DNA from: Lamellibrachia satsuma
Taxonomy: Eukaryota > Annelida > Polychaeta > Sabellida > Siboglinidae
Direction: 5' to 3'
NCBI GenBank assembly: GCA_033239005.1
Contig: BSQZ01000026.1
Location: 4,610,001-4,674,000, forward strand
DNA length: 64,000 nucleotides
In this document: positions 32,976 to 64,000 of the stretch, in pieces
How the letters are laid out: each line of letters starts with the position of its first letter
Numbering within the stretch: the first letter of the stretch is position 1
Program-made: the position numbers and the translations under genes
The notes under the pieces: model-generated
Databases searched by the model: none
What the model was told of the DNA's origin: nothing
The model's input: only the letters and a program-made list of their open reading frames with translations

Positions 32976-33667
32976 TCCTCGTGATGGCCAATCAGTGGTC
33001 TCTAGGGGGTCGCGGCGGAGATAGTTTTGTATAAGTATATGGACAAATGAAATGTTATGCAAATGAGCAAAATTGCACCAGCAATTCGCTATTTCTATGA
33101 GGATGTTGTTTCATCATATTTTACTTGTCACCTTTTGAATGAAACTGTGATGTGTATTTCATAAATATCTTGCAAACACAGCAGTTTTTGAGATTTGTGT
33201 ATTAAGGTAAAAAGTATTAAAGTATAGCTAATGTGTCCTTGATATGCCCATATTCGTTGTAATAATTAAAAATAACTGAAGCTTTATATTTACTTGTCAT
33301 CACGATTAACATGCTTTGCGTTATAACCGTGACAAAACAGATAAATAAAACACAGTGTGCATGTTTTTTTATGCTAGAAAATAAGAAAATATTAGTAGGG
33401 GCATTGAAAAACGTGTTGTTGCTATTTTTTTAATGATGATAACCAGGTCACTTTTATATAACGTGTATGCACTCTTATATCCACAGTTGTGTAATTTAAG
33501 ATAAAATATACAAGAGAAAGCTTGATTCTCTTTTCAATTAATCCAAATTGAAGCATTGATTATGATTACAGCTAAAGTCATATTAGTCTGGATGGATACG
33601 GTTAGGACACAGCTAATTTCCATGGCATGATCAGCACACAGCCTGGCTTGATGCCCTTGGCATCATT
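32976..33667. other. No supported feature
   Basis: AT-rich flank of the LINE; nothing recognised. Confidence 0.3.
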
Positions 33668-33675
33668 CAAAATTT

Positions 33676-33707
33676 CAAGATGGCGGCAAAAATTTCAAGA
33701 TGGCGGC
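33676..33707 (+). promoter_or_regulatory. Tandem YY1-type sites at the LINE 5' end
   Basis: CAAGATGGCGGC occurs at 33676-33687 and 33696-33707 as part of a 20-bp direct repeat (AAAATTTCAAGATGGCGGCA). This is the consensus of strong YY1 sites. The ATG of ORF1 (33700) lies inside the second copy, so the site doubles as the start codon context. The human L1 5' UTR also begins with a YY1 site that sets its start site; the parallel is inference. Confidence 0.55.
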
Positions 33708-34572: not shown

Positions 34573-34622
34573 ATGGACTGTGCTTGATAGCAGTCACAAT
34601 TGAACATCTTTAACCTAGTGTC

Positions 34623-37598
34623 ATGGATTACCCATGCAGTGTGTGCTTAAAAAAGGTACGTTCAAATGCAATATTCTGTAATGTGTGTAAAAATTGGATT
34701 CATCGGAAATGTGCAAATTTAACTGTTGTAGAACTCGACCATTATTCACATATTGAAAATGAATGGTTTTGTGTTAAATGTACTTCCGACATGTTTCCGT
34801 TTAGTCAAACTAATGACGATGAACTAAATTATCTCACATTAGGTATTGATGATAACCTAGGTGATTTGTTTGACAACTGCTCTAGTCTAAACTTTAAACC
34901 ATTTACATTTACTGATAATAAGGAATATTTTCTGACTGACAAAGCCGATCCAGATGACAATTTTTATAAACATGTGTCTCCGAACAGTTTATATTATACA
35001 GATGAACAATTCAAGCACAAGTTTGCATTAACATCAGAAGGAGTTGCTAACTTCTCTATAATACATTTCAATTGTCGTAGTTTAGCAAGTAACTTTAATA
35101 AGTTGAAAGACAGCATTAAAGCCTTGGGATTGCAATTTGATGTAATTGTAACATTCGTAATAAGACGGTCTACATGTGTGGTGATTTTAATGTTGATCTC
35201 CTACAGTATGATAAACACAATGCTACAAATAATTTCATTGACCAGTTGTACAGTCTTGGTTTACACCCTTTAATAACAAGACCTACTAGGATCACAAGTC
35301 ACTCGAAAACTCTGATAGATAATATATTCACAACAAACTTATCATCAATTATACAGTGTGGTTTAATAATAAATGATATGAGTGATCATTTGCCCATCTT
35401 CCAAATAACTGAATGCACCCATTTCAAATGCAGCAAAGTAGTTTACAACAGAAGGAGAATAGTGAATGAGCAAAAGTTAAATGTGCTAATGAACAAGCTT
35501 AAAGAATCTAACTGGAACAAAATACTGTGTAGTGAAGATGTAAATGAAATGTATAATACTTTTACTGACAACTTGACAAAGATATACAATACAGTATGTC
35601 CCATCGTTAATCAGAAAACCATTAACAAACAGACAGACAAGCCATGGATGACCAGTTCATTAAAACAAGCATGCAAGAAAAAAAATCTGCTGTACAGACA
35701 GTTCTTGAAGAGAAGATCAACTGCTAGTGAAGAAAAATACAAAAGATATAAGAACAAATTGACAGGCATACTAAGGTATTGTGAGAAACAACATTACACA
35801 GAACTTTTGGAAAAAAACAAGGGAAACATCAAAGAAACATGGAAAATAATAAATAGTGTCATAAACAAAAAAACTAAGGGAACTATTTACCCTACAGAAT
35901 TTAGAAGCAATGGAACCACAATTACTGGCAGCAAAAATATTGCAAATTGTTTCAACCATTTTTTTGTAAATATAGGGCCATCCTTGGCTAATAAAATCCC
36001 GAGAAGCAACAATGTTTTTACAAGATACTTATCTGATAAGGTTGAGGACACATTGTTTCTAAAGCCTGTAACCAAAGAAGAAATCATAAATCTGGTGAAA
36101 AACACAAAAAGCAAAAAATCTAAAGATCATGATGATATTGATATGTGCCTAGTTAAGAAAATATTACCTCACATAGTAACACCCCTAGAACATATATTTA
36201 ATATCTCGTTACAGAAAGGTGTTTTCCCAGATGGTATGAAATTGGCCCGAGTTATACCACTATTTAAAAATGGTGAAATGAATGATTTTAGTAATTACAG
36301 GCCTATATCTATACTATCTCAGTTTTCAAAAATTCTAGAAAAGATCTTCCACAACAGGATGATGTCATTTATTGATGACAAACAAATACTGTACAAAAGC
36401 CAATATGGGTTTAGAAAAAAACATGTCTACATCACTAGCAATAATGGAGCTTGTTGAGGAAATTACTACTTCTATTGATGATTGTAAGTCTACTATTGGT
36501 GTATTCATTGACTTGAAAAAGGCGTTTGATACAGTTGACCACAGCATTCTTGTAAAAAAACTTGAGCATTATGGAATAAGAGGACGTGCAAATATGTGGA
36601 TCTGCAGCTATCTCGAGAATAGAAGCCAGTATGTTTGTATTAATGACACACATTCTGAGTGCATGAAGGTAACATGTGGAGTTCCGCAAGGATCTATACT
36701 GGGTCCTGCTTTGTTTATCCTATATATTAACGATATGTGCAATGTGTCTTCATTGATGAAATCAATTGTATTTGCTGATGATACAAATTTCTTCTATTCA
36801 GGAGATGATTTGACAGAAACATGTAATACAGTATCAGAAGAACTGGACAAATTATGCAGTTGGTTTCAAGTTAATAAGCTTTCTTTAAATATTGCCAAAA
36901 CAAACTTTATGATATTCAGTAACAAAAAGTGTGATGGTAATCATTTGGTCAGTATAAATGGTGTGGACATTAATAGAGTGCATGTTACAAAATTTCTTGG
37001 TGTACACATTGACTGCCACTTGAATTGGAGTGATCACATCAACCTCACCAAAAATAAAATTTCAAAGAATGTATCTGTAATGTACAGGGTGAAACATTTA
37101 TTGAATAGTTCTGCTTTGTTCTCATTATATTGTACTCTTATCATGCCATATTTAAATTACTGTTGTGAAATTTGGGGCAATACTTATAAGAGCCGAATAC
37201 ATCCTTTGCATATTATTCAGAAAAGAGCTATTAGAATATGTCAACAAGCTGACTATATGTCTCACACTAAACCAATTTTTTTTCAACTGAAAACTTTAGC
37301 AGTACAGGACATGGTGAATTTTAATAGCATGGTGTTTATGTACAAGGTATATAACAGTCTATTACCTGCTAACATTCTGCTGTACTTCCAGAAAGTTAAT
37401 GCTAGCCACAATCACAACATCCGTAAGAAAAATTGTAATTTTAAAATAAGATACAGTAGGACTACGAAAAAATCTGACTGTATTAGTGTAAAAGGACCAA
37501 AGATATGGAATGATCTGTGTGATGATATTAAGTTGTGCAATTCAATTTATCAATTCAAGAAAAATTATAAAGCTTTACTCTTGCTTAGGTATGAATAA
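34623..37598 (+). pseudogene. LINE ORF2 (PHD-endonuclease-RT), broken
   Basis: Residues 5-53 form a Cys4-His-Cys3 PHD finger (C5, C8, C19, C22, H27, C30, C50, C53). An APE-type endonuclease begins at FSIIHFNCRSLASNFNKL but is interrupted near 35155. The frame then shifts to MCGDFNVDLLQYD and SDHLPIF, the end of the same domain, so the catalytic middle is deleted. The RT follows: NYRPISILSQFSKILEK, GFRK, a +1 frame change at about 36412-36430, then FIDLKKAFDTVDHSIL, GVPQGSILGPALF, FADD, and a long C-terminal region ending LLLLRYE. Family A/B fragments elsewhere belong to different families. Product: target-primed reverse transcription; this copy cannot encode it in one piece. Confidence 0.85.
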
Positions 37599-41112: not shown

Positions 41113-42490
41113 CAGCAAACACATAACATTTTTATAACATTTGATAAAGGTTATATACATGTTATAACGAAAACATTTTTCAATAACATTTCGTAAATGT
41201 AAACAAAATGTTATGTAAAATTTCAGAAACATCATACAGATGTTTTTAAGATAACGTAATTTTACATTTTTCAGTGATGTTTTTAAAACATCATTAAAAC
41301 ATTCCCATCAAACACAATAATGTTTTAAAAACATCAGAAAAATGTTTCCTCAAATGTCATAATAATGTTTTTTTAATGTTATAATGATATCAAAATGTGC
41401 CATCTTGGAAACATTTGAAAAACATTTTTAAACAATGTTTTTTTTAAATATATATACAACATCATGAAAACATGTTTGACAAAGGAACCTAAACATCACA
41501 AAAATGTTATTTTAATGTTGTATTAAAAATTTCACTTTGAAAGGTATAAGAAAAGCTTTGATTTTATGGCTGAGCCCAGCAAACACAATACTGTTTTAAA
41601 AACATCAGAAAAATGTTTCCTCAAATGTCATAATAATGTGTTTTTAATGTTGTAATGATATCAAAATGTGCCGACTTGGAAACATTTGAAAAACCTTTTT
41701 GAACAATGTTTTATTAAAACATATATATAACATCATAAAAACATGTTTGACAAAGGAACATAAACATCACAAAAAAATTATTTTAATGTTTTATTAAAAC
41801 ATTTCACTTTGAAAGGTATCAGAAAAGCTTTGATTTTATGGCTGAACCCAGCCAATACTATACTGCTTTAAAAACATAAGAATTTTTTTTCTAAAATGTC
41901 ATAAAAATGTTTTTTTAATGTTATAATAATAAAAAAATTGCCATCTTGGAAACATTTGAAAAACCTTTTTTGAACAATGTTTTATTAAAACATATATATA
42001 ACATCATAAAAACATTTTTGACAAAGGAACATAACATCACAAAAATTTTATTTTAATGTTTTATTAAAACATTTCACTTTGAAAGGTATCAGAAAAGCTT
42101 TGATTTTATGGCTGAACCCAGCAAACACAATACTGTTTTAAAAACATCAGAAATTTGTTTTCTAAAATGTCATAAAAATGTTTTTTTAATGTTATAATAA
42201 TATCAAAATGTGCCATCTTGGAAACATTTGAAAAACCTTTTTTGAACAATGTTTTATTAAAACATATATATAACATCATAAAAACATTTTTGACAAAGGA
42301 ACATAACATCACAAAAATTTTATTTTAATGTTTTATTAAAACATTTCACTTTGAAAGGTATCAGAAAAGCTTTAATTTTATGGCTGAGCCCAGCAAACAC
42401 AATACTGTTTTAAAAACATCAGAAAATTTTTTCAAAAATGTAATGAAAAATTTTTTTTTGATGTTATAATAATATCAAAATGTGCGAAGC
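41113..42490. repeat. AT-rich satellite, period about 272 bp
   Basis: Units start near 41302, 41576, 41848, 42118 and 42391 with CCCAGCAAACACAATACTGT and carry GGTATCAGAAAAGCTTTGAT near their ends. A divergent leader unit begins at 41113. Internally each unit is made of AAAACATTTT-type subrepeats. The last unit is cut at 42485. No coding capacity. Confidence 0.85.
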
Positions 42491-44983: not shown

Positions 44984-47900
44984 TGTAGCCATGCCATACT
45001 CTGTGGTTCTTTTCAAAGAAGGTGATGCTGTGGAAGTGGAATGCGTACCAACATCATGGATAGAAAAAAGAGGAGATGGGGTAAGTAATAAAAATGCAAT
45101 TTTTGTGTGGAATACTAATTATGGCTTAATTGGTTATTTGCAGACATTACCCAGGCTGACTACGTAAGAATTTGTTTTAGTGGAGAGGGGGAGGGTTCGT
45201 GTAAAAACATTTGGGTTATATTTTGAGAAAACCCGTGACAGAAAACGCAGCCAAAATATCAAATAGCCAAACTTTTTGTCTCTCAATATGTATACTTAAA
45301 TACATCTACAAATAGACAAAGATAATGTCAGTTTGTTACATTAACTATTTAATTTAATGTTAGTTATCTTTGTCATATTTGTTTAACTTGGCAGAAAATT
45401 TACTACTGGCCATCTGGAAATGACCAGAAGAAGAAAATAAAGAGGAATGAAATGCCTGACAAGGCGCAGTGGACAGCATACAATGTTCGCATCATAGGCA
45501 AAACTGGTAATGCACATTATTCATAGTTACATATTAGATTCATGATATGTAAAGTAGAATATAGGAGGGGTGGTTTGTTGCAGTCATGTTCTCATGATAG
45601 AGAATTGTCAAAATGTGATTGTTTTTAGAATCAAAAACGCACCATTGGCTATTTTATAATTAATTAGAAATGTAAAATGAAAAGGCCGACAACATTGTAT
45701 ATGCATGCTTTACAACAATTTACCAACAAATTAACTCATGCTATTGTCATCAACCCATTTGTGAGTGTGTGACAACAGGCTTCATTGATTCTAAATGTAT
45801 TGTATACTGCCAACCAATAATTGTTAAACATTTGTCCATTTAGGCAAGGAGATCCTTTGTTTTTGTTGTAAGTTGAGACATTTTCCTGATTAATTCAGAG
45901 TACCCCGACTATGAGACAGCTTCCAAGTATGCGAAAAAGGCAGAGGATACATCTAATGTTGAGCCAGATGAAGCACAGGGGAAGCGGCATTGTCAAAAGC
46001 CAAAACGCTACCAATCTCCTGATTCACCGGCAGTAGTTAGTGAGGAGTGTGGAGAAGATGGTAATGAAAATTAAAATGCCCCATCTCATATTTGCTTTTA
46101 TCATCCAATATGTATATCTTCCCAGTAGAGCGGTCTGTAATGAGAGGTGTCTATATGCTACAGAATTTTAAAGATGACCAATACTTTTATCCAAACATTT
46201 GTACATGGCCTTTTTATTCAAATAAAATCAATTGTAAAATTTTATATCCTACATTATTCAACATTCATAAGTATAGTGTGTACATGTGTTTGCAACACAT
46301 TTCTTATTCTACCTTATTTGATGGGAAGTTAATGTGGTGTACATGTTTTCTATTTTCACAAATGATTTTGAAATGTGATTTGTGGACATTCTGTTGTTAT
46401 GAAAGACTTTGGTGTCTGCTTCTGGACAAATATCAATTTGATTGTAGGTTTAACTTCAAGAACATATCGGTATTCTACCAAGACAAACTCTGTACAACCC
46501 TGAAAATAGTTTCAGATTCAGAAGTTGAGGAAACTCCAGATACTGTGGAAACAGTTGCACTCCCTCCACCTCCTTTCAGTTTCTCAGGTAACAATTATAC
46601 AAAAATACATAAAATATAGTTAATGTACAACAAAGGACAGTGGAACTTGGTTAATCCTGACACCTTGATACCCACTGTATGTGTTTGGATTAACGAGCTA
46701 TGATTTTAATATAAAAAGTATCGTGCATTTACTGTACACATGTCTATCACACTTGTTGAATACTATAACATAATGTGGACATTAAATGCCATCTGATTCA
46801 CTTGTACAGGTCTAATGGCTATTTATTGAAGAAGTCTGAGTTTTGTCTGCTTGGTTTCTCTATATCTACTATTGTAAGAATGTGATGTCTCTGTCCAAAT
46901 GTATATCCTAAATATTTCATGTCACTGTGACTTTCATGTCAAATAAACTAATAGATAATAATATATAATTGTAACATTTATGTTCAATACAGCACTGGAT
47001 ACTGAAAGTGGCAGTGATTTGCCCAGAGGTAAATCTTCTAAGCGTACAGAGCCACCACTTCGACCTAGTTGCAGTTCATCCCAGGCCCAACTTAAGCTGC
47101 CGCAAGTTCTCGGCAAACAATAACGTCCACAGGGTGATGGACTGCAAATGGAGAGTCCTGGCAGATCACAGATGATGTCGAGCTCCTTCTGCATTCAAGG
47201 TACTCCTTTATGCTTCTTTACACGTAGGCCGTTTTAAGTGCTAATATACCATTGGTCTTTCCCTACTCAGGGGACCCCATGGGAAAATTTGACACTGTTT
47301 TTATCCTCCTTGTTACCCCATTAAATAAGCATCATTCAATTAAATAAATGCCCCTTTTCTTACCATTTGGGGTTGCTGGCAGGGGAGGACCCAACTAAAA
47401 TTGCTGGCATTGGTCATTCCATAATCAGGGAACCCCAAATGAAGATTTGACACTCTTTTTAGCCTTGGCACAATTCCCATAAATAAATGTACTTCTTTCT
47501 CACCCTTTGGGGATTGCTTGCAGGGGGAAGCCCCACCTAAAATTGATTGCATCGATTCAAGCGGATATAGTTGTCTCAATGTTTCAGTTCTGGCCAAGCT
47601 AGAGAAACGGGAGAAAACACAGCAGGAGATAAAATTATCTCTCGTCACTTCACAGCCAGATGATGACTTGACATTAGACACCATTCTGCCTAATGGCAAG
47701 AAACTGAACACACTCAATGAACTGAGCAATTTTGAAAAACAGTTGGGTGAAGATGATGACATAAGGAATTGATTTAGTATGTTTAAGATATGTTTGAGTC
47801 AATTATAAAGTGGCATTGCTTTTTTACTGTATTTTTGAAGAAACCTTAGAGTCTAAATTAATTTGGAAAGCTTTCTATACAGAACCTATTTCTAGGAATT

Positions 47901-48479
47901 ATTGTGACATTTCAAATTATGCTTAAAGGTGTGAAATATAAATTATTTCATGAATGTATGAATATCAAAATGGTCCAGCTTCATAATTGTTTAGTCAATA
48001 ATGTTTGTGTTCCTTCAAGACAAGTTCACTTCATATTCGACTGTAACTGATTGTTGGTCCAACATTATAACATGGGAAGCAAAAGGTTAAAATAATCCAA
48101 AAGAAAATAAATTACCTATTTATTATTGGTTTAGGAATAAAAATTTGCTTGTGAGTGACAATAATGAGTTTCTGCAAGTGCATACATACATATGTACGTG
48201 TGTGCGCGCGTGCGTGCATGCATGCATGCAAACAATTTTATAATATAGAAATGATCAAACTTTGTTCCTTTAAAATAGAGTTGTCATTTTATATTAAAAT
48301 ATATATTTATTTTACACAGATTCAAATTCTTTCGTCACTAGAGGGTGCAAGCCTTGCTAGATCCTGCAGGGCCATTATGCGGTCACTGATGACTCATGGC
48401 CTTATGAGTTTGTTCAGTGTTATGGGGCAAAAGGGAAAACTACCCTTTCGAGACCATCTGCTGTGCAAAGTGGTCTCAA
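44984..48479 (+). pseudogene. DUF4806-type multi-exon gene, apparently inactivated
   Basis: Exons 44984-45080 (ATG at 44991), 45395-45506, 45899-46060, 46516-46587, 46993-47199, 47588-47772 and 48320-48479. Phases agree at all junctions up to exon six. The N-terminus (MPYSVVLFKEGDAVEVECVP; YYWPSG; W.AYNVRIIGK; YETASKYAKKAED) and the last two exons (NGKKLNTLNELSNFEKQLGE; SLARSCRAIMRSLMTHGLMS; CKVVS) follow the pattern I associate with DUF4806 proteins, a mobile-element-linked family common in cnidarians, arthropods and molluscs. Damage: an in-frame TAA at 47121 where the surrounding sequence suggests CAA (KQ/RPQGDG), no usable donor after exon six (frame ends in TGA at 47770), and no final exon after the donor at 48480, because mobile element E1 starts 120 bp further on. 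Confidence 0.6.
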
Positions 48480-48793
48480 GTAAGTATATTTCCATTGACC
48501 TGTGTGCTTATTATATTATCATGATCTTACTATAAGCAATAGTTGTTTATTGATTACTAAACAAATTTTTTTCTAACAAATTCCCTTAACTTACAAAATC
48601 GTGGGCGCATGAATACACAGCTATTTTTTGTAAATATTGACGGGCATCGCACATGGGGGCATTTTAAAAGAGCTGGAGGCATGTGATTTTGATAAACGTT
48701 GGTGAGCATGTCAATGAGATGATGGCAGTTGCTGCACATTTATTTCAGAATTTTTGATGGTCAGGTTTTCTTATAATCAGACAAAACGTTAAC

Positions 48794-49321
48794 ATGGCCA
48801 CCAATGCAATTCCCAACTGTGGTCTGACTCCAAATAGAGTGTCATGGCAACGGAAACAGAAAACATGGATGTTGATTTTTAAAAAGTACACTGCAAAATT
48901 ACAAGAAAAGGTGGTATTGTCTGCCAATGGGCAGTGTCAGTTGTGGACAGGGTGCAAAAAAGGGAAATTCAGTGACTATGGTGTGATTAATTGCCGTTTT
49001 GAGTGTGGCTACAGAACGGTTACAGTGCATCGTTTAAGTTATATGCTTGAACACAAAATGACACGTGTTGAACCTGGCTTAGATGCCAGTCATCTTTGTC
49101 ATAACAGTCTGTGTCTGACAGCAAGTCATATCTCTATGGAGCCACATTCCATAAATAACAACAGGCAATATTGTGTTAGTCAAAATGTATGCTTTGGTCA
49201 TGCACCATATCCAAAGTGTATGTTGCAATTCAAGGTATTTCAATGGCAATGCAATAGTAAAACTTACATTTTTCTAGATGTGTTGAATCCTTTAGTTTTT
49301 TCAAAGTGTCGTCTGCTGTAG
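48794..49321 (+). CDS. I-PpoI-like His-Cys box nuclease, copy 1 (N-terminus altered)
   Basis: From residue ~36 onward it is nearly identical to copy 2 (52989): the DASHLCHNSLCLTASHISME core, HSINNNRQYC and CFGHAPYPKC. A 2-bp deletion near 48872 puts the copy-2 start (ATG at 48844, MATETENMDVDF) directly into a stop. The core stays open only from a different upstream ATG (48794), giving an unrelated 33-residue leader. So the catalytic domain is complete, but the original start is lost. Predicted activity: Zn-structured, metal-dependent DNA cleavage of the His-Me finger type. Confidence 0.7.
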   Translation: MATNAIPNCGLTPNRVSWQRKQKTWMLIFKKYTAKLQEKVVLSANGQCQLWTGCKKGKFSDYGVINCRFECGYRTVTVHRLSYMLEHKMTRVEPGLDASHLCHNSLCLTASHISMEPHSINNNRQYCVSQNVCFGHAPYPKCMLQFKVFQWQCNSKTYIFLDVLNPLVFSKCRLL

Positions 49322-49534
49322 TCAATCTTATGCAGTTGTGTCTGTCAGCCCATGCTGAGTGATGTCTTCGAATGTCGATTGATGTATAGCTCACAAGATG
49401 GCATCATGGTCCATTGTCTGTTGGTGGTTTCGTGTATTGTGGTTGCAGGTCTATGAGTGATGAAACTGGGAGAAAGTAGAAAGTTCACATTTGTAAGAAG
49501 TGTTCTGTTTTCTGTTTATTTCATAATCTACCCT

Positions 49535-50446
49535 CTAATTTCTGCTGGCATAACTGTGATCAGCAGACTTTCGTGATCGCAATGAAAAAGGATGATCTTC
49601 CCTGTTTGCAGTTGGCAGTGTTGTCTTTCTGCGACGACTCCTTGTGACCACTGGCTTAACTACTGCTGCTGGCGTTTCTGAAGCTGGCCTTTTCTTCCCT
49701 TTACGCGTAGATGGTTTTGGATCAGGCTGACATTTCAGGTATCGATCTTCTGGACGGCGGTTTCTGTTTGAATCGAAGTAGTTCTGCATGCGCTTTAACT
49801 TGGTATGACGGATATGCAGACGCACTGATGATCGACGTTTGTATTGTCTCTGGTATTCCACCTCATGCTGGATTTGCTTGACAGCTCTAGCGACCTGTCC
49901 ACCTCTCGTAATAGGACAATGTACATTCTCCAACTTGCGCAGCATTGAATTCCCCGCTCCATAATTTATGCGATCGATCACTGAACTCACTCGTCCATGT
50001 GCATTTCTACTGAATTTAACATTCTTCGGCAATGAAGCACTGAATGATCGGTTAATGGATTCATTCTTGTCAGTTGTAAGTCTGTGTCGTGTCATCTGGA
50101 GTGCTGAATTTCCAAGTCGCATTTCTATTAATCCTTTAAGTGTTGCTCGGTCTTCATCTGTCATATTGAGTCGTGTCAGGCCACGTGAATACACGTCGGA
50201 AACTGCCAGCAATCCTGAAGGAGTGGTTTGCACCACTCTGTCAAAGTCATCCTGGCTTAGCCGTGGCAACCAAACCCCACTGTTAACCCCACTGGGTTCC
50301 TGTTGGATTGCTGCATCTGATGGTTTGTGGTAACAGTGGCCGGTCTTGAAGCCACCAATTTTCATCTTAATTCCACCAGCAGGTGGACATTTCTCCTCAC
50401 TCTTTCTACTACTACTACTACTACTATCATGTGTTGTCTCCTCCAT
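49535..50446 (-). CDS. Mutator-like transposase-related ORF, internally deleted (keeps C-terminal region)
   Basis: 303 codons from ATG 50446. Common N-terminus: MEETTHDSSSSSSRKSEEKC, then GVWLPRLSQDDFDRVVQTT. At LLAVSD it jumps to VYSRGLTRLNMTDEDRATLK and a C-terminal block HRLTTDKNESINRSFSASLP, KNVKFSRNAHGRVSS, GAGNSMLRKLE, CPITRGGQVARAVKQ, which I associate with the end of metazoan Mutator-like transposases. The tail PASETPAAVVKPVVTRSRRR is basic and may be a nuclear localisation signal. The central region present in E3 is missing, so a full catalytic domain is unlikely. A start upstream of 50446 in the same frame is possible (MSLSLVILLGF) but the shared ATG is conserved in all copies. Confidence 0.6.
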   Translation of the reverse strand: MEETTHDSSSSSSRKSEEKCPPAGGIKMKIGGFKTGHCYHKPSDAAIQQEPSGVNSGVWLPRLSQDDFDRVVQTTPSGLLAVSDVYSRGLTRLNMTDEDRATLKGLIEMRLGNSALQMTRHRLTTDKNESINRSFSASLPKNVKFSRNAHGRVSSVIDRINYGAGNSMLRKLENVHCPITRGGQVARAVKQIQHEVEYQRQYKRRSSVRLHIRHTKLKRMQNYFDSNRNRRPEDRYLKCQPDPKPSTRKGKKRPASETPAAVVKPVVTRSRRRKTTLPTANREDHPFSLRSRKSADHSYASRN

Positions 50447-50935
50447 TTTAAAATCCCAGGTAAATCCAAGTAAAATTACTAATGAAAGTGACAAAACCGT
50501 TATCTGAATGCAAAGACGTCTAATCCACCTGAGAAACCAGATGACAGTGACAGGAGACCAGTATATTGGGGGGGGGGGGTGGGGACATCTTCAAACTAGA
50601 GCAGCCTCCCTCTGATAAGTTACATCAAAGCAGAACAAGTCACATTATAATATAATTACTTAGCAGTCAACTTTTGTTTATTTCAGTTAATTAGACACAG
50701 TCACCTTGAGAAAATCCTTGACAGGCCCAGCTGTTATCTGATATGGCCTAGTGAGCTGACGTAACTGTTTCACATGGAAGGTGAGTTGTTTTTGAGGACT
50801 CCACTAAGTAGGTTATGTAATGTTATGCAATTCGACAAGTTGAGGTGTCTGTCTTTTCAGTAATCCACACTCAAAGGTGATATTTGGATCTGTTTACATA
50901 GGTGTATTGTGGCACCAGGTAAAAAATTATTATAC

Positions 50936-51225
50936 CTTTCAGTATGGAATAACAACTGGCTATATAGAATTTGATTACAGAACACATGTTGGATTATTCC
51001 AAAAATTATGTTACAAGTTCAATCGAGTCAGCTGAAAAAGTGAGTGTATTCGAGTATCGTACTAGAATACAGACTTTCTCAAGCTGAAGTAACTCATATA
51101 TGGGTGTTCTGCCCACCACAGGTGGTGGTTCCTTGTGTATGTAAGCAACTCCAACAACTAGGTAGGACATAGATTTTTTGCATGAATGCATGATTTTCAT
51201 TTACCTTTATGACCAGTATAAATTA
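50936..51225. repeat. Inter-element segment, first copy
   Basis: Repeats at 52263-52555: AACAACTGGCTATATAGAAT, GTTCTGCCCACCACAGGTGG, GGTAGGACATAGATTTTTTG. Part of the tandem unit, non-coding. Confidence 0.7.
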
Positions 51226-51302
51226 AAAAAAAATCTGCACAGTTACCATTTTTACTTGGGGTAAGACCACAGTTGACCTTCCTGTTTACTGTTTCACACG
51301 AA

Positions 51303-52262
51303 TGTAGGGCACGCGAAATTGTGAAATGTGAACTTAATAAATTCATATTATGTGACATGAGTCCCTTTGAGCATGAATATTCACAGGTTTGTTTATAGAA
51401 GCTATTGGCTGTGAAATAGTGCATTTTTTGGAGAGTTTAACTGGCGGAGGGATTTATGGGAATTTTTCTGCTATGGGCCACTTGGGCGCATGAATACACG
51501 TCGGAAACTGCCAGCAATCCTGAAGGAGTGGTTTGCACCACTCTGTCAAAGTCATCCTGGCTTAGCCGTGGCAACCAAACCCCACTGCTAACCCCACTGG
51601 GTTCCTGTTGGATTGCTGCATCTGATGGTTTGTGGTAACAGTGGCCGGTCTTGAAGCCACCAATTTTCATCTTAATTCTACCAGCAGGTGGACATTTCTC
51701 CTCACTCTTTCTACTACTACTACTACTATCATGTGTTGTCTCCTCCATTTTAAAATCCCAGGTAAATCCAAGTAAAATTACTAATGAAAGTGACAAAACC
51801 GTTATCTGAATGCAAAGATGTCTAATCCACCTGAGAAACCAGATGACAGTGACAGGAGACCAGTATATTAGGGGGGGGTGGGGACATCTTCAAACTAGAG
51901 CAGCCTCCCTCTGATAAGTTACATCAAAGCAGTACAAGTCACATTATAATATAATTACTTAGCAGTCAACTTTTGTTTATTTCAGTTAATTAGACACAGT
52001 CACCTTTACTCAAGTCCATGTGAAGAGCACACATCTATTGGGAGTTGAGAAAATCCTGGACAGGCCCAGCTGTTATCTGATATGGCCTAGTGAGCTGACG
52101 TAACTGTTTCACATGGAAGGTGAGTTGTTTTTGAGGACTCCACTAAGTAGGTTATGTAATGTTATGCAATTCGACAAGTTGAGGTGTCTGGCTTTTCAGT
52201 AATCCACACTCAAAGGTGATATTTGGGTCTGTTTACATAGGTGTATTGTGGCACCAGGTAAA
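51303..52262. mobile_element. Element E2: short internally deleted copy
   Basis: Left region (ATGTAGGGCACGCGAAATTG, 51303-51498) joins directly to the N-terminal part of the transposase-like ORF, and the shared right region runs to 52262. The nuclease gene and most of the other ORF are gone. The junction word TGAATACAC is present at both source sites (GCGCATGAATACACAGC in the left region; CACGTGAATACACGTCGG in the ORF), so a 9-bp microhomology explains the deletion. Confidence 0.8.
51437..51748 (-). pseudogene. Transposase-like ORF of E2, N-terminal stub
   Basis: Shares the first ~85 residues with E1 and E3 (ATG 51748, MEETTHDSSSSSRKSEEKC, one Ser fewer) and then runs out of frame into the left region after SDVYS. 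It carries the E1-type junction (SDVYS rather than SDAERR), so it descends from an E1-like deletion copy. Confidence 0.75.
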
Positions 52263-52555
52263 AAATTATTATAACTTTCCGTATGGAATAACAACTGGCT
52301 GTATAGAATTTGATTACAGAATACATGCTGGACTATTCCAAAAATTATGTTACAAGTTCATTCGAGTGAGCTGAAAATGTGAATGTATTTGAGTATCGTA
52401 CTAGAATACAGACTGTCTCAAGCTGAAGTAACTCATATATGTGTGTTCTGCCCACCACAGGTGGTGGTTCCTTGTGTATGAAAGCAACTCCAACAACTAG
52501 GTAGGACATAGATTTTTTGCATGAATGCATGATTTTCATTTACCTTGATCAACAG
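52263..52555. repeat. Inter-element segment, second copy
   Basis: Direct repeat of 50936-51225 with a few substitutions. It passes straight into the left region of E3. Confidence 0.7.
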
Positions 52556-52988
52556 TCTAAATTCAATGTAGGGCACGCGAAATTGTGAAATGTGAACTTA
52601 ATAAATTCATATTATGTGACATGAGTGCCTTTGAGCATGAATATTCACAGGTTTGTTTATAGAAGCTATTGGCTGTGAAATAGTGCATTTTTTTGAGAGT
52701 TTGACTGCCGGAGGGATTTATGGAAATTTTTCTGCTATGGGCCACGTGGGCGCATGAATACACAGCTATTTTTTGTAAATATTGACGGGCATCGCACATG
52801 GGGGCATTTTAAAAGAGCTGGAGGCATGTGATTTTGATAAACGTTGGTGAGCATGTCAATGAGATGATGGCAGTTGCTGCACATTTATTTCAGAATTTTT
52901 GATGGTCAGGTTTTCTTATAATCAGACAAAACGTTAGCATGGCCACCAATGCAATTCCCAACTGTGGTGTGACTCCAAATAGAGTGTC

Positions 52989-53468
52989 ATGGCAACGGAA
53001 ACAGAAAACATGGATGTTGATTTTTGTAAAAAGTACACTGCAAAATTACAAGAAAAGGTGGTATTGTCTGCCAATGGGCAGTGTCAGTTGTGGACAGGGT
53101 GCAAAAAAGGGAAATTCAGTGACTATGGTGTGATTAATTGCCGTTTTGAATGTGGCTACAGAACGGTTACAGTGCATCGTTTAAGTTATATGCTTGAACA
53201 CAAAATTACACGTGTTGAACCTGGTTTAGATGACAGTCATCTTTGTCATAACAGTCTGTGTCTGACAGCAAGTCATATCTCTATGGAGCCACATTCCATA
53301 AATAACAACAGGCAATATTGTGTTAGTCAAAATGTATGCTTTGGTCATGCACCATATCCAAAGTGTATGTTGCAATTCAAGGTATTTCAATGGCAATGCA
53401 ATAGTAAAACTTACATTTTTCTAGATGTGTTGAATCTTTCAGTTTTTTCAAAGTGTCGTCTGCTGTAG
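52989..53468 (+). CDS. I-PpoI-like His-Cys box nuclease, copy 2 (intact)
   Basis: 159 residues. Aligned by motif with the slime-mould homing endonuclease I-PpoI: SHLCHN is shared exactly, giving catalytic His84. First zinc site C32 (or C38), C86, C91, H96. Metal-binding Asn105. Second zinc site C111, C117, H120, C126. HRLSYMLEHK precedes the core as in zf-His_Me_endon proteins generally. The start is the ATG at 52989 (MATETENMDVDF); an ATG in another frame at 52939 does not reach the domain. After C126 a donor-like AAG/GTATTT (about 53380) suggests the tail may be spliced. It converges with the transposase-like gene. Homing-type nucleases of this class normally belong to group I introns in rDNA, so the setting is unusual. 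Confidence 0.75.
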   Translation: MATETENMDVDFCKKYTAKLQEKVVLSANGQCQLWTGCKKGKFSDYGVINCRFECGYRTVTVHRLSYMLEHKITRVEPGLDDSHLCHNSLCLTASHISMEPHSINNNRQYCVSQNVCFGHAPYPKCMLQFKVFQWQCNSKTYIFLDVLNLSVFSKCRLL

Positions 53469-53731
53469 TCAATCTTATGCATTTGTGTCTGTCAGCCCAT
53501 GCTGAGTGATGTCTTCGAATGTCGATTGATGTATAGCTCACAAGATGGCACCATGTGCCAGTCATGGTCCATTGTCTGTTGGTGATTTCTTGTATTGTGG
53601 TTGCAGGTCTATGAGTGATGAAACTGGGAGAAAGTAGAAAGTTCACATTTGTAAGAAGTGTTCTGTTTTCTGTTTGTTTCATAATCTACCCTCTACTTTC
53701 TGCTGGCATAACTGTGATCAGCAGACTTTCG

Positions 53732-54625
53732 TTATCGCAATGAATAAGGATGATCTTCCCTGTTTGCAGTTGGCAGTGTTGTCTTTCTGCGGCGACTCCT
53801 TGTGACCACTGGCTTAACTACTGCTGCTGGCGTCTCTGAAGCTGGTTTTTCCCTCTTCTGCTGTAGGTCATCAGTCGTGGACTGAGAAGTAATTGTGGCA
53901 ACCCGGTTGGATGTCCTTTGCATCCCGCTTCGACTTGGGGGAGGTGTATTTGTTGTGGGCAGAATGTGTCGCAACTTTGTGTTTCCCATCGTTGTATCTT
54001 GTAGTCCTACATGGATGGCTACATTTGAAGCACACGGTTTCTGACCACGACTGCCCGTGTTTACTTCGGAATACAGTTTATACATACGTGACTTGTAGTG
54101 ACAGGCTGTACAGGACAATGACTGTTGCCAACACAAACCAAATTTTTTCTCATGTACTTCGAAGTGTGGAAGAATACATGTGTCCTCTCTGCCAGCATGC
54201 TCTTTAAAGCAATCATTCCACAATGCTGCATTTTTGTCCACACTAAGTAGACGCATTTCAGAAACTGCATGAGTATCTGTCTGTACGTCAGCTTGAAGAT
54301 AGATGTCTGTTAGGTCAGGGCATTGATCAAGCTGTGGCCGTAGAATTTTGCTCGTGCCTGGCCGTCGCTCTGCATCTGAAACTGCCAGCAATCCTGAAGG
54401 AGTGGTTTGCACCACTCTGTCAAAGGCATCCTGGCTTAGCCGTGGCAACCAAACCCCACTGTTAACCCCACTAGGTTCCTGTTGGATTGCTGCATCTGAT
54501 GGTTTGTGGTAACAGTGGCCGGTCTTGAAGCCATCAATTTTCATCTTAATTCCACCAGCAGGTGGACATTTCTCCTCACTCTTTCTACTACTACTACTAC
54601 TACTATCATGTGTTGTCTCCTCCAT
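53732..54625 (-). CDS. Mutator-like transposase-related ORF, internally deleted (keeps central region)
   Basis: 297 codons from ATG 54625, sharing the Ser-rich start and the PASETPAAVV..RSRRRKTT end with E1. After LLAVSD it keeps SKILRPQLDQCPDLTDIY, LLSVDKNAALWNDCFKEH, then FGLCWQQSLSCTACHYKS (a C..C-x2-C zinc-ribbon-like group), MYKLYSEVNTGSRGQKPC, HVGLQDTTMGNTKLRHIL and TNTPPPSRSGMQRTSNR. I associate this series with the Mutator-like transposase domain of cnidarian and mollusc mobile elements. It is then joined to the common tail at QQKREKPASE, losing the region E1 retains. E1 and E3 are thus complementary deletion products; neither is complete. Confidence 0.65.
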   Translation of the reverse strand: MEETTHDSSSSSSRKSEEKCPPAGGIKMKIDGFKTGHCYHKPSDAAIQQEPSGVNSGVWLPRLSQDAFDRVVQTTPSGLLAVSDAERRPGTSKILRPQLDQCPDLTDIYLQADVQTDTHAVSEMRLLSVDKNAALWNDCFKEHAGREDTCILPHFEVHEKKFGLCWQQSLSCTACHYKSRMYKLYSEVNTGSRGQKPCASNVAIHVGLQDTTMGNTKLRHILPTTNTPPPSRSGMQRTSNRVATITSQSTTDDLQQKREKPASETPAAVVKPVVTRSRRRKTTLPTANREDHPYSLR

Positions 54626-55290
54626 TGTAAAATCCCAGGTAAATCCAAGTAAAATTACTAATGAAAGTGACAAAACCGTTATCTGAATGCAAAGGCGTCT
54701 AATTCGCCTGAGAAAACAGATGACAGTGACAGGAGAACAGTATATTTTTGGGGGGGTTGGGGACATATTCAAACTAGACCAGCCTCCCTCTGATAAGTTA
54801 CATCAAAGAAGAACAAGTCACATTATAATATAATTACTTAGCAGTCATCTTTTGTTATTTCAGTTAATTAGACACAGTCACCTTTACTCAAGTCCATGTG
54901 AAGAGCACACATCTATTGGGAGTTGAGAAAATCCTGGACAGGCCCAGCTGTTATCTGATATGGCCTAGTGAGCTGACGTAACTGTTTCACAGGGAAGGTG
55001 AGTTGTTTCTGAGGACTCCACTAAGTAGGTTATGTAATGTTATGCAATTCGACAAGTTGCGGTGTCTGGCTTTTCAGTAATCCACACTCAAAGGTGATAT
55101 TTGGGTCTGTTTACATAGGTGTATTGTGGCACCAGGTAAAAAAATATACTTTCCTTTTCAGATTTTTCAAAATGTTTCTGTCCAACATGACTCCCTCTAC
55201 CTTTCCCCGAGCATTCGCTCCCTGTTGTATCCGGCATCGCATTTCTACCTCTGAATGCTCATCCTCATTAACCATTCCTCTAAGTTACCA

Positions 55291-55626
55291 AGGGGTGCGA
55301 TAGCATACCGGTTAGAAGGCCGGACTCTCAGTCGAGAGAACCCGGTTTCAAATCCCACTGCGGTCGCTTCGAACCTTTGGCAAGTTTGATCACCCCACGT
55401 TGCCACAGTTCACTCAGCTGTATAAATGAGTACCTGGCAATACAGACAGTGGTGGATATATGAACGAATAGCCTTCGCGCAGCAATTGCAGCGTGGCTGA
55501 ATACTTCCCAAAGAAGTTGAGATGGCTTTGGAATGAACAGGTCTGCCAGGGTGTGAAGTGTAAAGCGCTTTGAGCAGTCCTATGGACCGGATACCGCGCT
55601 ATATAAGAACATACCTTTACTTTTTA
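55291..55626 (+). mobile_element. tRNA-derived SINE, full length
   Basis: tRNA-like head with A box (GATAGCATACCGGTTAGAAG) and B box (GGTTTCAAATCC), a central domain with CTGTATAAATGAGTACCTGG, and a 3' region with GTAAAGCGCTTTGAG and CCGCGCTATATAAGAACATA, the sort of tail that SINEs share with L2/CR1-type LINEs. It is duplicated at 62603, present inverted at 61112, and found as fragments at 3679 and 40300. Its 3' end sits 3 bp from an RT fragment. Confidence 0.8.
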
Positions 55627-55629
55627 CAC

Positions 55630-55970
55630 AAAGCCATCCACTTGGTTGAACTCCTCATCATCCAAACTAATGTTCAAGTCCTCTCTCTGATGTCAAACAC
55701 ACATCTCTTCTGTCTTCTCCCGGCTCATTATCGGTCCGTGCTTCTTGAACATCCCCTTCCATTGCTCCAACACTTCCTGTAGTTCTTGTTTTTTGTCTGC
55801 TATCATGGCCAGATCGTTTGCATACATCCCCTTCCTGAGAACATCCTTCATGCTGATCTTCCTGCTGATTAGTGCCACCACCATGATAAAGAGTAAAGGG
55901 TCATTTCCTTGCCTCTAACCGATGTTAACTTGAAACTCTTCCGACAACCCATATCCAACCACAACTCTTG
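55630..55970 (-). mobile_element. LINE reverse transcriptase fragment
   Basis: The minus strand reads PLLFIMVVALISRKIS, GMYANDLAMIADKKQEL (the YADD box mutated to YAND), EVLEQWKGMFKKHGPIMS, REKTEEMCV, then in another frame DLNISLDDEEFNQVDGF. Clade not assigned. It is dead (Asn for catalytic Asp, frame change) and duplicated at 62942. Confidence 0.75.
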
Positions 55971-56179
55971 TTTTTGTTCTCAGGAACATGACAGTTATGG
56001 GTGTTGCACGCCATGACACAGAACTGACTAAATACAACCAACTCATTACAAAGTCAGACTCCCAGATAAGTCAGACTCCCAGATAAGTTATTTTGTAATT
56101 TCTGTAAACTATTATAATGATCAAACTACAACACTGACTGATATGTATTGCCTGTATAGACTTGATGTCATCATTCCAG

Positions 56180-56352
56180 GTGCCACCATCAAACCTCAGT
56201 CACAAAAGTCAGTACACAACATGACTACATCAGTGGACGACACAGAGCCTTTCGATTACACAACAATTGACGTACCAGCAGTAAAGACGTCACGACAGGA
56301 CGGCGTCGGTGTCACCTGGGACAAACCACACAAGGATGAGAACATCGACAGC
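56180..56352 (+). CDS. Host-like internal exon, unknown gene
   Basis: 173 bp between an acceptor (TCATCATTCCAG) and a strong donor (AGC/GTAAGT), open in one phase. The peptide runs ATIKPQSQKSVHNMTTSVDD, TEPFDYTTIDVPAVKTSRQD, GVGVTWDKPHKDENIDS. It resembles a cytoplasmic tail of a membrane protein, but I do not recognise it. A duplicated copy at 63492 has lost one base. Splice signals, balanced composition and the frameshift in the copy argue that this one is the original. Confidence 0.45.
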
Positions 56353-56380
56353 GTAAGTTCTTGGCTCATGCTAATTATTG

Positions 56381-56510
56381 CACTCACAGCCAAGTCAGTC
56401 TTTACGCAGACATTACAGCTTACTTGAAGTGTAAAGTGATTGTTGTACTCACAGCCCAGTCAGTCTTTACACATATATTACAGCTTACTTGAAGTGTAAA
56501 GAGCTCTCTT
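56381..56510. repeat. 65-bp tandem duplication
   Basis: GTACTCACAGCCCAGTCAGT..TTACAGCTTACTTGAAGTGT unit present twice after the exon donor. The pattern is kept in the second copy near 63690. Confidence 0.75.
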
Positions 56511-56813
56511 GCTCTTGCATTAAAAACACGCGGGAAGGAGTTGTAGACCGAACTGCCCCAGGTATATGGGTAGCTGTCTTGCCCCAGGGGGCACCAAGAT
56601 GGCTTTTTGGGGTATTTTTACTGCTGCAAATGTTGATCCTTTTATGGTCGTCGGCACACTGCTTCAAATGTTCATCCTATCATTCCACTAGTATTCAACA
56701 GATGTGTAATATAGATGTAATGTTTGGTCGAATTATATATATTTTTGGAATGGAACCATTGGTTGATTCAGACAGAAAAGGAAGCATTTAAGTAGACAGG
56801 TTTTCTTACACCT

Positions 56814-60009: not shown

Positions 60010-61104
60010 TTACACCAAAAAATAATAGTAATTTTGTACTCGTTGGAGTTTAGCCAAGTCTCTTTTAGCAATGTTGTTTAGTAGTGAATTGCAATAGTCA
60101 AGACGACTGCTAATTAGTGCCGTTGATATTGTTTTAGCAGTAGATATAGATATGTGACGCCGAATTCGACGAAGATCACGAATATGATAGAAACAGGATT
60201 TACATACTTGAGAGATATGCTGGCGAAAGTTGAAATCACTTTCAAAGATAACACCTAGATTACGAACAGTATCTGATTGGAATGTATCACTGCCAAGCCG
60301 TTTAACAGGAAAATGGTTGATGACTTTATTTCGTTGTTGTTTAGTGCCAGTAATAATAAGGTCTGTTTTATCTGGATTAAGCTTTAGCTTACTTGATTCC
60401 ATCCACGACAAGATATCAGTAAGGCAATCACAAAAAGTCGAAAGAGATTCTTGTACATTTGATTGTGAAAGTGATATGTAAACCTGTGTGTCATCAGCAT
60501 AAAGGTGATGACTGAGATTACGATTAGCAATAACTCGGTTGAGCGATGTAGTATATAAGCTGAACAGAACAGGGCCAAGGACGGATCCTTGTGGCACTCC
60601 AAATTGTAGGTGTTGTTGGCTAGATAATGTGCCAGATATGTTAATACTTTGATATCTGTCTGATAAAAATGATTTGAACCACCAAAGAGCTGGGCCAGAA
60701 ATTCCAAAATATCTATGGAGGCGTTGTAAAAGGATTGAATGATCAATTGTATCGAAAGCAGCTGAGAGATCAAGCAAAGTGAGTGCTGTGACTTTGCCAT
60801 TGTCCATGTTATCAACTATATCATTGTGTATCTTGAGAAGAGCTGTTTCAGTAGAATGGAATCGTTTATATGCAGACTGTAGATCATTTGATAACTGATG
60901 GTTGTAAATATGTTCATGAAGGCGATTAGCAACTACTTTTTCCAATATTTTTGACAGAAAACTGAGATTAGAGATAGGACGATAATTCCTTAGGTCATCT
61001 TTGCACAAAGTTTGTTTTTTAATAAGAGGATTTACAAGAGCTTGTTTGAAATCCTGTGGAACAACTCCACTCTGCATTGAAAGGTTTATGATAGTAGTAC
61101 GCAT
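60010..61104 (-). mobile_element. L2-like LINE reverse transcriptase, open over 364 codons
   Basis: Reads GVVPQDFKQALVNPLIKK, NYRPISNLSFLSKILEKVVA, LLDLSAAFDTIDHSILLQRL, FGVPQGSVLGPVLFSLYT, HHLYADDTQVYIS (intact YADD), WMESSKLKLNPDKTDLI, RNLGVIF, SRLDYCNSLL and LQRVQN. All RT blocks are present without a stop, but the endonuclease domain and the last ~100 residues are missing. The 5' side abuts a SINE at 61112. The protein could fold as an RT core, yet lacks the parts needed for retrotransposition. Confidence 0.85.
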
Positions 61105-61111
61105 CAGTTAG

Positions 61112-61345
61112 TGTACGTTCAGTGTTCAAAGTGTTTTACACTTCACCCCTAGCACACCTGTTCATTCCAACTCCATCTCGACTTCTGTGGGAAGCACTCA
61201 GTCATGCTGCAGTTACTGCTCGAAGACCATTCGTACGTATAATCACCACTGCTGATAGCCAGATACTCATTCATACAAACGAATGAGCTGTGGCAACGTT
61301 CGGTGAAACAAATTGCCAAAGCTTCAAAACGGCAGCAAGACGGTT
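61112..61345 (-). mobile_element. SINE, inverted copy
   Basis: The reverse complement matches the body and 3' region of the 55291 SINE: GAACCGT..CTTTGGCAA, GTTGCCACAGCTCATTCG, GAATGAGTATCTGGC, AAGTCGAGATGGAGTTGGAA, GGTGAAGTGTAAAACACTTT. The tRNA-like head is missing. More diverged than the 55291/62603 pair. Confidence 0.65.
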
Positions 61346-61349
61346 CAAG

Positions 61350-62065
61350 CTAGGGTTTTCACGACTAGGAGCCTGACGTTCTATCTGGAACGTTGTCACG
61401 CCCCATTCGATGGGAGAGAAGGAGAAGGGTCAGAGAAGAAGCGAGGAAGGGAGAGGAGGCAGCGCGGGAGGGATATGTGCCGTTTGTTTGTTAATGCAGA
61501 CATGTACAAGTGTTTAGCAATATTTAATATGGCCATGGTTCGCACCACGCTGTAGCTTACTCATGCGCGCATCTTACTGCTAACACTAGTACGAAAAGTA
61601 AAATAATAAACCGCGCAAAAACAAATGTTGCAACATAGGCCTCTATAGCTCAATGCGCATACCAGCTCATATCACGGCATGTGGCTTTTATTAAACGTCG
61701 GCAGGGAAGCGTGTCTGCGAATCAGTGTTTGTTACACATGTGTATCCTGGTACAAAGTCAACACTTGTGTCGAACGCGGTGTCTTTGATGGGGAGCGTTG
61801 AATGCTATATCAAAGATGATTGATTGTTTGCTATAATGTTTACATCATCTAACGTGTGTCCTGGAACGAAACTAGCATTGGTATCGCATCAAAGAGACGT
61901 CGGAGTCGTGCATCAGTGCTTCACTTGACCTGGATGGAGGCAGAGTCTTGTAAGAGCAGTTGCTGTAGACGTGGGCGAATGGATGAAGATTGGGTGACGT
62001 CGAGCAAGACAAATATGTATTTGGGCAGCGGTTTGATGCTGCCGAGCGCCGTCGTCATGAGTTCC
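61350..62065. other. No supported feature
   Basis: Includes a purine-rich stretch (GGGAGAGAAGGAGAAGGG, near 61410) and no gene I can support. Confidence 0.3.
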
Positions 62066-62070
62066 CTGTG

Positions 62071-62453
62071 AAAGTGACAAAACCGTTATCTGAATGCAAA
62101 GGCGTCTAATCCGCCTGAGAAAACAGATGACAGTGACAGGAGACCAGTATATTAGGGGGGGTTGGGGACATATTCAAACTAGTGCAGCCTCCCTCTGATA
62201 AGTTACATCAAAGCAGAACAAGTCACATTATAATATAATTACTTAGCAGTCCACTTTTGTTTATTTCAGTTAATTAGACACAGTCACCTTTTCTCAAGTC
62301 CATGTGAAGAGCACACATCTATTGAGAGTTGACTAAGTAGGTTATGTAATGTTTTGCAATTCGACAAGTTGCGGTGTCTGGCTTTTCAGTAATCCACACT
62401 CAAAGGTGATATTTGGGTCTGTTTACATAGGTGTATTGTGGCACCAGGTAAAA
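62071..62453. mobile_element. Element E4: right end only
   Basis: Starts abruptly at GAAAGTGACAAAACCGTTAT, about 20 codons outside the transposase-like ORF start, and continues to CACCAGGTAAAAAA. A 94-bp segment present in E3 (about 54924-55018) is missing. The junction to the unrelated sequence at 62070 marks the edge of the duplication. Confidence 0.7.
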
Positions 62454-62602
62454 AAATATACTTTCCTTTTCAGATTTTTCAAAATGTTTCTGTCCAACAT
62501 GACTCCCTCTACCTTTCCCCGAGCATTCGCTCCCTGTTGTATCCGACATCGCATTTCTACCTCTGAATGCTCATCCTCATTAACCATTCCTCCAAGTTAC
62601 CA

Positions 62603-62937
62603 AGGGGTGCGATAGCATACCGGTTAGAAGGCCGGACTCTCAGTCGAGAGAACCCGGTTTCAAATCCCACTGCGGTCGCTTCGAACCTTTGGCAAGTTTG
62701 ATCACCCCACGTTGCCACAGTTCACTCAGCTGTATAAATGAGTACCTGGCAATACAGACAGTGGTGGATATGTGAACGAATAGCCTTCACGCAGCAATTG
62801 CAGCGTGGCTGAATACTTCCCAAAGAAGTTGAGATGGCTTTGGAATGAACAGTTCTACCAGGGTGTGAAGTGTAAAGCGCTTTGAGCAGTCGTATGGACC
62901 GGATACCGCGCTATATAAGAACATACTTTTACTTTTT
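62603..62937 (+). mobile_element. tRNA-derived SINE, duplicated copy
   Basis: Copy of the 55291 SINE carried by the segmental duplication rather than by a new insertion, since flanks match on both sides. Confidence 0.8.
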
Positions 62938-62941
62938 ACAC

Positions 62942-63282
62942 AAAGCCATCCACTTGGTTGAACTCCTCATCATCCAAACTAATGTTCAAGTCCTCTCTCT
63001 GATGTCAAACACACACCTCTTCTATCTTCTCCCGGCTCATTATCGGTCCGTGCTTCTTGAACATCCCCTTCCATTGCTCCAACACTTCCTGTAGTTCTTG
63101 TTTTTTGTCTGCTATCATGGACAGATCGTTTGCATACATCCCCTTCCTGTGAACATCCTTTATGCTGATCTTCCTGCTGATTAGTGCCACCACCATGATA
63201 AAGAGTAAAGGGTCATTTCCTTGCCTCTAAACGATGTTAACTTTAAACTCTTTCGACAACCCATATCCAACCACAACTCTTG
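62942..63282 (-). mobile_element. LINE RT fragment, duplicated copy
   Basis: Copy of 55630-55970, with GMYANDLSMIADKKQEL. Confidence 0.75.
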
Positions 63283-63491
63283 TTTTTGTTCTCAGGAACA
63301 TGACAGTTCTGGGTGTTGCACGCCATGACACAGAACTGACTAAATACAACCAATTCATTACAAAGTCAGACTCCCAGATAAGTCAGACTCCCAGATAAGT
63401 TATTTTGTAATTTCTGTAAACTATTATAATGATCAAACTACAACACTGACTGATATGTATTGCCTGTATAGACTTGATGTCATCATTCCAG

Positions 63492-63663
63492 GTGCCACCA
63501 TCAAACCTCAGTCACAAAAGTCAGTACACAACATGACTACATCAGTGGACGACACAGAGCCATTCGATTACACAACAATTGACGTACCAGCAGTAAAGAC
63601 GTCACGACAGGACGGCGTCGGTGTCACCTGGACAAACCACACAAGGATGAGAACATCGACAGC
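63492..63663 (+). pseudogene. Duplicated exon with a 1-bp deletion
   Basis: Same acceptor and donor as 56180-56352, but GTCACCTGGACAAACC lacks one G of GTCACCTGGGACAAACC. The last ~18 codons shift frame (WTNHTRMRTSTA instead of WDKPHKDENIDS). Confidence 0.6.
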
Positions 63664-64000
63664 GTAAGTTCTTGGCTCAAGCTAATTATTGCACTCACAG
63701 CCAAGTCAGTCTTTACGCAGACATTACAGCTTACTTGAAGTGTAAAGTGATTGTTGTACTCACAGCCCAGTCAGTCTTTACACATATATTACAGCTTACT
63801 TGAAGTGTAAAGAGCTCTCTTGCTCTTGCATTAAAAACACGCTGGAAGGAGTTGTAGACCGAACTGCCCCAGGTATATGGGTAGCTGTCTTGCCCCAGGG
63901 GGCACCAAGATGGCTTTTTGGGGTATTTTTACTGCTGCAAATGTTGATCCTTTTATGGTCGTCGGCACACTGCTTCAAATGTTCATCCTATCATTCCACT

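Follow-up and report, generated by a model that had tools for sequence, protein, structure and literature searches.

A tandem array in Lamellibrachia satsuma, very probably a degenerate multimer of a KolobokP transposon with an I-PpoI-like nuclease

The siboglinid annelid Lamellibrachia satsuma carries a direct tandem array of a DNA transposon, encoding a His-Cys box nuclease and a transposase-type protein, in a stretch of 64,000 nucleotides (NCBI GenBank assembly GCA_033239005.1, contig BSQZ01000026.1, positions 4,610,001 to 4,674,000 of the forward strand; the whole stretch is called the window here). By comparing the window with itself, three units in a row were found at 48600-55143, with 48600-49687 matching 52745-53845 at 97.3%, 50186-51227 matching 51491-52566 at 93.3%, and 51501-52280 matching 54375-55154 at 95.7%. 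The original prediction, made from the sequence without database searches, had described a nuclease-transposase pair in the first and third units, duplicated together, and a middle unit derived by deletion. This layout is borne out by the direct repeats and by unit 2, from which the nuclease and the greater part of the transposase are gone. The internal regions (INT) are separated by long terminal direct repeats (LTDRs), and the features of the array are as follows (ORF, open reading frame; TIR, terminal inverted repeat).

48600..50908, minus strand: INT1, internal region of unit 1, from repeat boundaries; it shares sequence with unit 3 from 48600, and the sequence upstream differs
48758..49321, plus strand: unit 1 nuclease ORF of the His-Cys box (His-Me finger) type; PF05551 (zf-His_Me_endon), E 9.7e-10, 39.2 bits
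49535..50590, minus strand: transposase remnant of unit 1; tblastn, P0047 1-87 at 50446-50183 and P0029 368-584 at 50182-49541
50909..51481, no strand: LTDR1, 573 bp, separating INT1 and INT2, from unit boundaries and TIR-like ends
51482..52247, minus strand: INT2, internal region of unit 2, with unit-1-type filler at its deletion junction
52248..52745, no strand: LTDR2, 498 bp, separating INT2 and INT3, from unit boundaries and TIR-like ends
52746..55125, minus strand: INT3, internal region of unit 3, from repeat boundaries and alignment
52983-53468, plus strand: His-Cys box nuclease ORF of unit 3; PF05551 (zf-His_Me_endon), E 7.5e-08, 33.1 bits
52989..53468, plus strand: the unit 3 nuclease from its ATG, 159 aa, open; it aligns with 17 of 25 database relatives
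53732..54802, minus strand: transposase remnant of unit 3; PF20700, E 1.2e-22; tblastn, P0036 1-305 and P0026 154-204
55126..55143, no strand: 18-bp stub of an outer LTDR, GTGGCACCAGGTAAAAAA, from alignment and sequence, with unrelated flank beyond

The array thus reads INT-LTDR-INT(deleted)-LTDR-INT, with unit 2 spanning 51482-52745 when LTDR2 is included. The units share their LTDRs as in a multimer, and full outer LTDRs are absent: none precedes INT1 on the left side of 48600, where one would be expected, and of the right one the 18-bp stub is all that is left. The right edges of the LTDRs were fixed by the left end of unit 1, and the left edges were placed from the stopping point of unit 3 and the TIR-like ends.

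Both nuclease ORFs exceed the curated PF05551 cut-off of 27 bits and are 97% identical across 146 residues. The predicted His-Cys box genes were therefore recovered in both units, with one amendment: the native frame of unit 1 is broken, stopping after 12 codons with a 2-bp deletion at codon 13, and its ORF is open only by way of another upstream frame; the active-site block is kept. In HMMER alignments, S83, H84, H96, E100, and N105 of the unit 3 nuclease align with S97, H98, H110, E114, and N119 of I-PpoI, the catalytic residues of which were taken from the published account (PMC9587614). The best match of the unit 1 ORF alone among Protein Data Bank (PDB) sequences is I-PpoI (E 0.0087), and a profile built from unit 3 and 17 of its 25 database relatives also found I-PpoI best (E 0.0025; top three I-PpoI chains, 0.0025-0.0037). 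The structure of the unit 3 nuclease was predicted poorly (mean pLDDT 57.8), and its best PDB structural match, an I-PpoI mutant, is weak (E 0.28, TM 0.31) and was not used as proof. The catalytic block ASHLCHN...H...E...N in the HMMER alignment is shared with I-PpoI and the His-Cys box homing endonucleases of group I introns; unlike the window nuclease, which belongs to a DNA transposon, I-PpoI-type enzymes come from a self-splicing intron, and the similarity is weak and local.

A protein database search returned 25 clusters of nuclease relatives, of which P0001 has 146 members. The catalytic His, scored by eye, is present in 14 of the 18 alignment rows and absent from P0003, P0009, P0013, and P0016, a partial loss that would be expected of decaying copies. 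In a scan of viral contigs (IMG/VR), four loci (L001-L004) were found to encode distant His-Cys box proteins with 29-34% identity to the first sequence of the alignment; four KolobokP-type transposase queries against the fetched stretches of these loci gave nothing better than E 2.3. A scan of prokaryote genomes matched 21 stretches, none of which was confirmed.

The minus-strand ORFs of units 1 and 3 converge on the plus-strand nuclease of their own unit, which is encoded on the opposite strand to the transposase and past its 3' end. In unit 1, the N-terminal ~87 residues of the transposase are joined to a C-terminal part with the third catalytic residue, E (DKNESINRS), and both catalytic D residues are deleted; the C-terminal part is 69% identical to P0029 368-584 and 93% to P0026. 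In unit 3, a deletion that removed the DDE core has joined the N-terminal half to the C-terminal tail, and no catalytic residue is kept. The alignments indicate that the two remnants are pieces of one protein. The Pfam model PF20700, named 'Mutator', matches the unit 3 remnant over profile positions 6-132 of 357, and the minus-strand ORFs of units 1 and 2 have no Pfam match.

One explanation for these genes is that two unrelated neighbours were brought together by chance and duplicated once, and it must be granted that both pairs in the window stem from a single tandem array and count as one case rather than two. Against this, both families have large clusters in the database (146 members in P0001 of the nuclease, 212 in P0035 of the transposase), and three of the 25 nuclease clusters and three of the 44 transposase clusters have longest contigs of equal size (256023, 288120, and 1070295), so that these three cluster pairs probably lie on common contigs. 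The pair has also been published from seven animal phyla (PMC9587614), and a chance encounter is considered extremely unlikely.

A second explanation is that the gene pair was domesticated from a transposon and retained for a cellular function of the host, as could be suggested by a unit 3 nuclease ORF that is open although the transposase beside it has been gutted. Purifying selection between the unit 1 and unit 3 nucleases was sought over 160 codons, in which two synonymous and four non-synonymous changes and one frameshift were counted; no sign of constraint was found, and six substitutions are too few to decide. Both transposases are broken as well, and domestication is given a probability close to negligible. 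Since the DDE core is intact in no copy, self-contained mobility at the locus was rejected.

The identity of the transposase was approached through its relatives. Two longer ones, P0029 (585 aa) and P0058 (536 aa), match most of the PF20700 model. P0029 has six motifs in order: the first catalytic D lies in NISMDVRYN and is followed by a CCHC finger, the second catalytic D lies in YVATDGD, then come DTTH and a DCYxGxCxxC finger, and NESINR contains the E. P0058 has the first five in order before its sequence stops short of the E. The remaining 42 of the 44 transposase clusters, mostly fragments, have fewer motifs or none; the distant cluster P0064 matches two of the six patterns.

This motif order is the one described for KolobokP, a group of Kolobok-superfamily DNA transposons, by Kojima and Bao in 2022 (PMC9587614). 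In that description, the KolobokP signature comprises a DDD/E triad, C/DxxH, a zinc finger before the E, and a CCHC finger after the first D, and DxxH together with both zinc fingers is given as a feature of KolobokP and the nearest Kolobok lineages. MuDR is described there as a related DDE superfamily in which no zinc finger separates the second catalytic residue from the third (PMC9587614). The relatives differ from MuDR in this respect: in P0029, DTTH and NESINR are separated by DCYxGxCxxC, which also follows DTTH in P0058. Membership of the Mutator superfamily was rejected on the basis of this zinc-finger signature. The possibility that a MuDR element acquired its His-Cys box nuclease in an event separate from KolobokP draws on the Pfam label of the transposase match; the relatives carry DxxH and both zinc fingers, the window element has an LTDR architecture, and its gene order and multimer structure equal those of KolobokP, and such a capture is judged very unlikely. 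The Mutator-like transposase of the original prediction is hence retained as a PF20700 match in unit 3 alone, with a name that is Pfam's and relatives that bear the Kolobok signature.

The organization of the array also agrees with KolobokP, in which, by the published description, the direct strand encodes a DDD/E transposase and the complementary strand an I-PpoI-like nuclease downstream of it, and which has LTDRs, solo repeats, and (LTDR-INT)n-LTDR multimers (PMC9587614). Internally deleted copies have been published (note to its Table 2), and KolobokP is reported there from molluscs and other animals, with bivalves especially rich. The sense strand of the element corresponds to the minus strand of the window, and the convergent downstream nuclease, the direct repeats between INTs, the multimer, the internal deletions, and the CCHC and second zinc fingers in the DDD/E transposase relatives are points of likeness. 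Unlike the described elements, the window copy lacks outer LTDRs and the catalytic D in both transposase remnants, and its inner repeats (498 and 573 bp) are slightly longer than the published short class. Because the genes, their orientation, the repeat structure, and the internal deletions agree with the paper, the array is very probably a decayed KolobokP multimer with the structure INT-LTDR-INT(deleted)-LTDR-INT. The nuclease and transposase are accordingly parts of one DNA transposon, as had been proposed, and the accompanying remark that no described family with this gene pair was known is not supported: the combination of a transposase with a homing-type nuclease was already published in 2022, and the locus adds a new copy and no new class.

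MuDR elements produce target site duplications (TSDs) of 8-11 bp, and duplications of this length had been named as something to look for around full-length copies. This was the wrong test for KolobokP, the TSDs of which are mainly 3-4 or 4-5 bp (PMC9587614).

Several observations weigh against the assignment to KolobokP. The catalytic D is absent from both remnants in the window, and the full signature is drawn from the relatives, only one of whose 44 clusters (P0029) supplies the whole motif set; the motif patterns were composed after some of the relative sequences had been inspected, so they are descriptive and do not amount to a blind test. The comparison was made against the description in PMC9587614, not deposited KolobokP sequences. 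Sharing a contig is not the same as being adjacent. TSDs are unreadable at the locus because the outer LTDRs have been lost. The LTDRs of 498 and 573 bp fall between the published classes of ~450 and ~660 bp, the first of which includes repeats of 473 and 480 bp (PMC9587614). The terminal repeats offer a further difficulty. KolobokP LTDRs are described as bearing their own TIRs of 11-18 bp with 5'-RR...YY-3' termini (PMC9587614). With the edges fixed, the TIR-like ends of LTDR1 (GTGGCACC.../...GGGCCAC) match at 13 of 22 positions and those of LTDR2 at 14 of 22, a score equalled by 17 of 400 random placements, and GG...CC termini appear only after 2 bp are trimmed. Free TIR searches in LTDR2 did not rise above shuffled sequences, with a best score of 11/14 (shuffled median 10, 95% point 12) and of 12/18 (shuffled median 12); TIR support is marginal.

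The transposase deletion of unit 1 left a non-native filler, with unit 1 reading ...SDVYSRGLTRLN... where undeleted relatives have ...LLAVSDAEGRP... on one side of the filler position and ...LKACGLTRLN... on the other. The same filler, GAATACACGTCGGA, is carried at the deletion junction of unit 2, and unit 2 was therefore derived from a unit-1-type copy; the sequence indicates a second deletion between two repeats of TGAATACAC, one at the INT edge and one in the filler region, recognized by eye. The transposase deletion of unit 3 is different from that of unit 1. One database relative, P0031 (LLAVSDVYSCAH), has the unit-2 type of deletion and represents either a separate copy or this very locus as assembled elsewhere. 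The 9-mer GTGTATTCA of the unit 1 junction filler recurs, by eye, at the INT edge beside the LTDR, where ~0.1 chance matches were expected by a hand estimate.

In the published model, the DDD/E Kolobok-superfamily transposase would move the LTDR-bounded unit of a living element (PMC9587614). The I-PpoI-like nuclease might cut within the LTDR or at its ends, and repair of the break from a misaligned copy could add tandem units; nuclease-induced unequal exchange is called speculative by the authors themselves (PMC9587614). The products seen at the locus are tandem units, two distinct transposase deletions, a secondary deletion in unit 2, and missing outer LTDRs. Following this model, multimerization may have been caused by the nuclease and the outer LTDRs may have been excised.

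A more specific proposal is that the LTDR is itself a substrate of the nuclease in cis, with the palindrome CCACCACAGGTGGTGG as a possible target, and that the breaks made by the nuclease drive both tandem growth and internal deletions. This 16-bp palindrome, with 7-bp arms and a 2-bp centre, is kept in both LTDRs (51113-51128 and 52452-52467), and its role as a homing site is a guess. The recurrence of GTGTATTCA at the INT edge, as if copied in repair, would be in line with deletions driven by nuclease breaks. On the other hand, 18 palindromes in the window have arms of at least 7, a centre of up to 6, and GC of at least 50%, two of them in LTDRs and three in INT copies; with five of the 18 in the array, a palindrome in an LTDR of ~500 bp is only mildly unusual. 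Considering these comparable palindromes and the lack of nuclease constraint among the six substitutions, action in cis at the palindrome is unlikely. If it were nevertheless true, copies without a transposase could still expand in an array through the nuclease alone. The locus is a well-resolved decayed multimer for a lineage of DNA transposons in which a homing endonuclease is proposed to drive tandem multiplication. Two of its features, a nuclease frame that is still open next to a dead transposase and a palindrome common to both LTDRs, offer concrete testable material.

The longest of the 18 GC-rich palindromes lies elsewhere in the window, at 20546-20573; its inverted repeat is perfect, with arms of 13 bp around a 2-bp centre.

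A further fragment of the transposon was found to the right of the array by self-comparison, alignment, and tblastn.

62069..62466, minus strand: extra fragment of the same element, from the transposase leader to an LTDR stub, with an internal gap

The right flank of the array is involved in a tandem segmental duplication, in which 55020-56689 and 62332-64000 are 98.6% identical with a period of ~7.3 kb and the second copy reaches the end of the window. The fragment opens this second copy, and the duplication starts inside the KolobokP remnant, which places the edges of the duplication and the transposon close together. On the left side, 47443-47772 and 48155-48535 (plus strand) are exon-like and resemble a DUF4806-type C-terminus by eye, with no match in Pfam; the KolobokP array may sit in or beside an intron of a host gene.

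Other repeats are also present in the window. A dispersed repeat of ~285 bp occurs at 55292-55576, 61123-61404 (minus strand), and 62604-62888, with a piece at 3687-3741; it has a tRNA-like head and is probably, as judged by eye, a short interspersed element. ARAGORN predicted no tRNA genes across the window. Two non-LTR retrotransposon remnants lie at 33652-37598 (plus strand) and 60010-61107 (minus strand), in which Pfam RVT_1 matches were obtained for the ORFs 35141-37598 and 60013-61107; the ORF 33652-34572 has no Pfam match above the curated cut-off. A satellite-like array at 41304-42485 is composed of 4.4 copies of a 271-bp unit with 92% matches.

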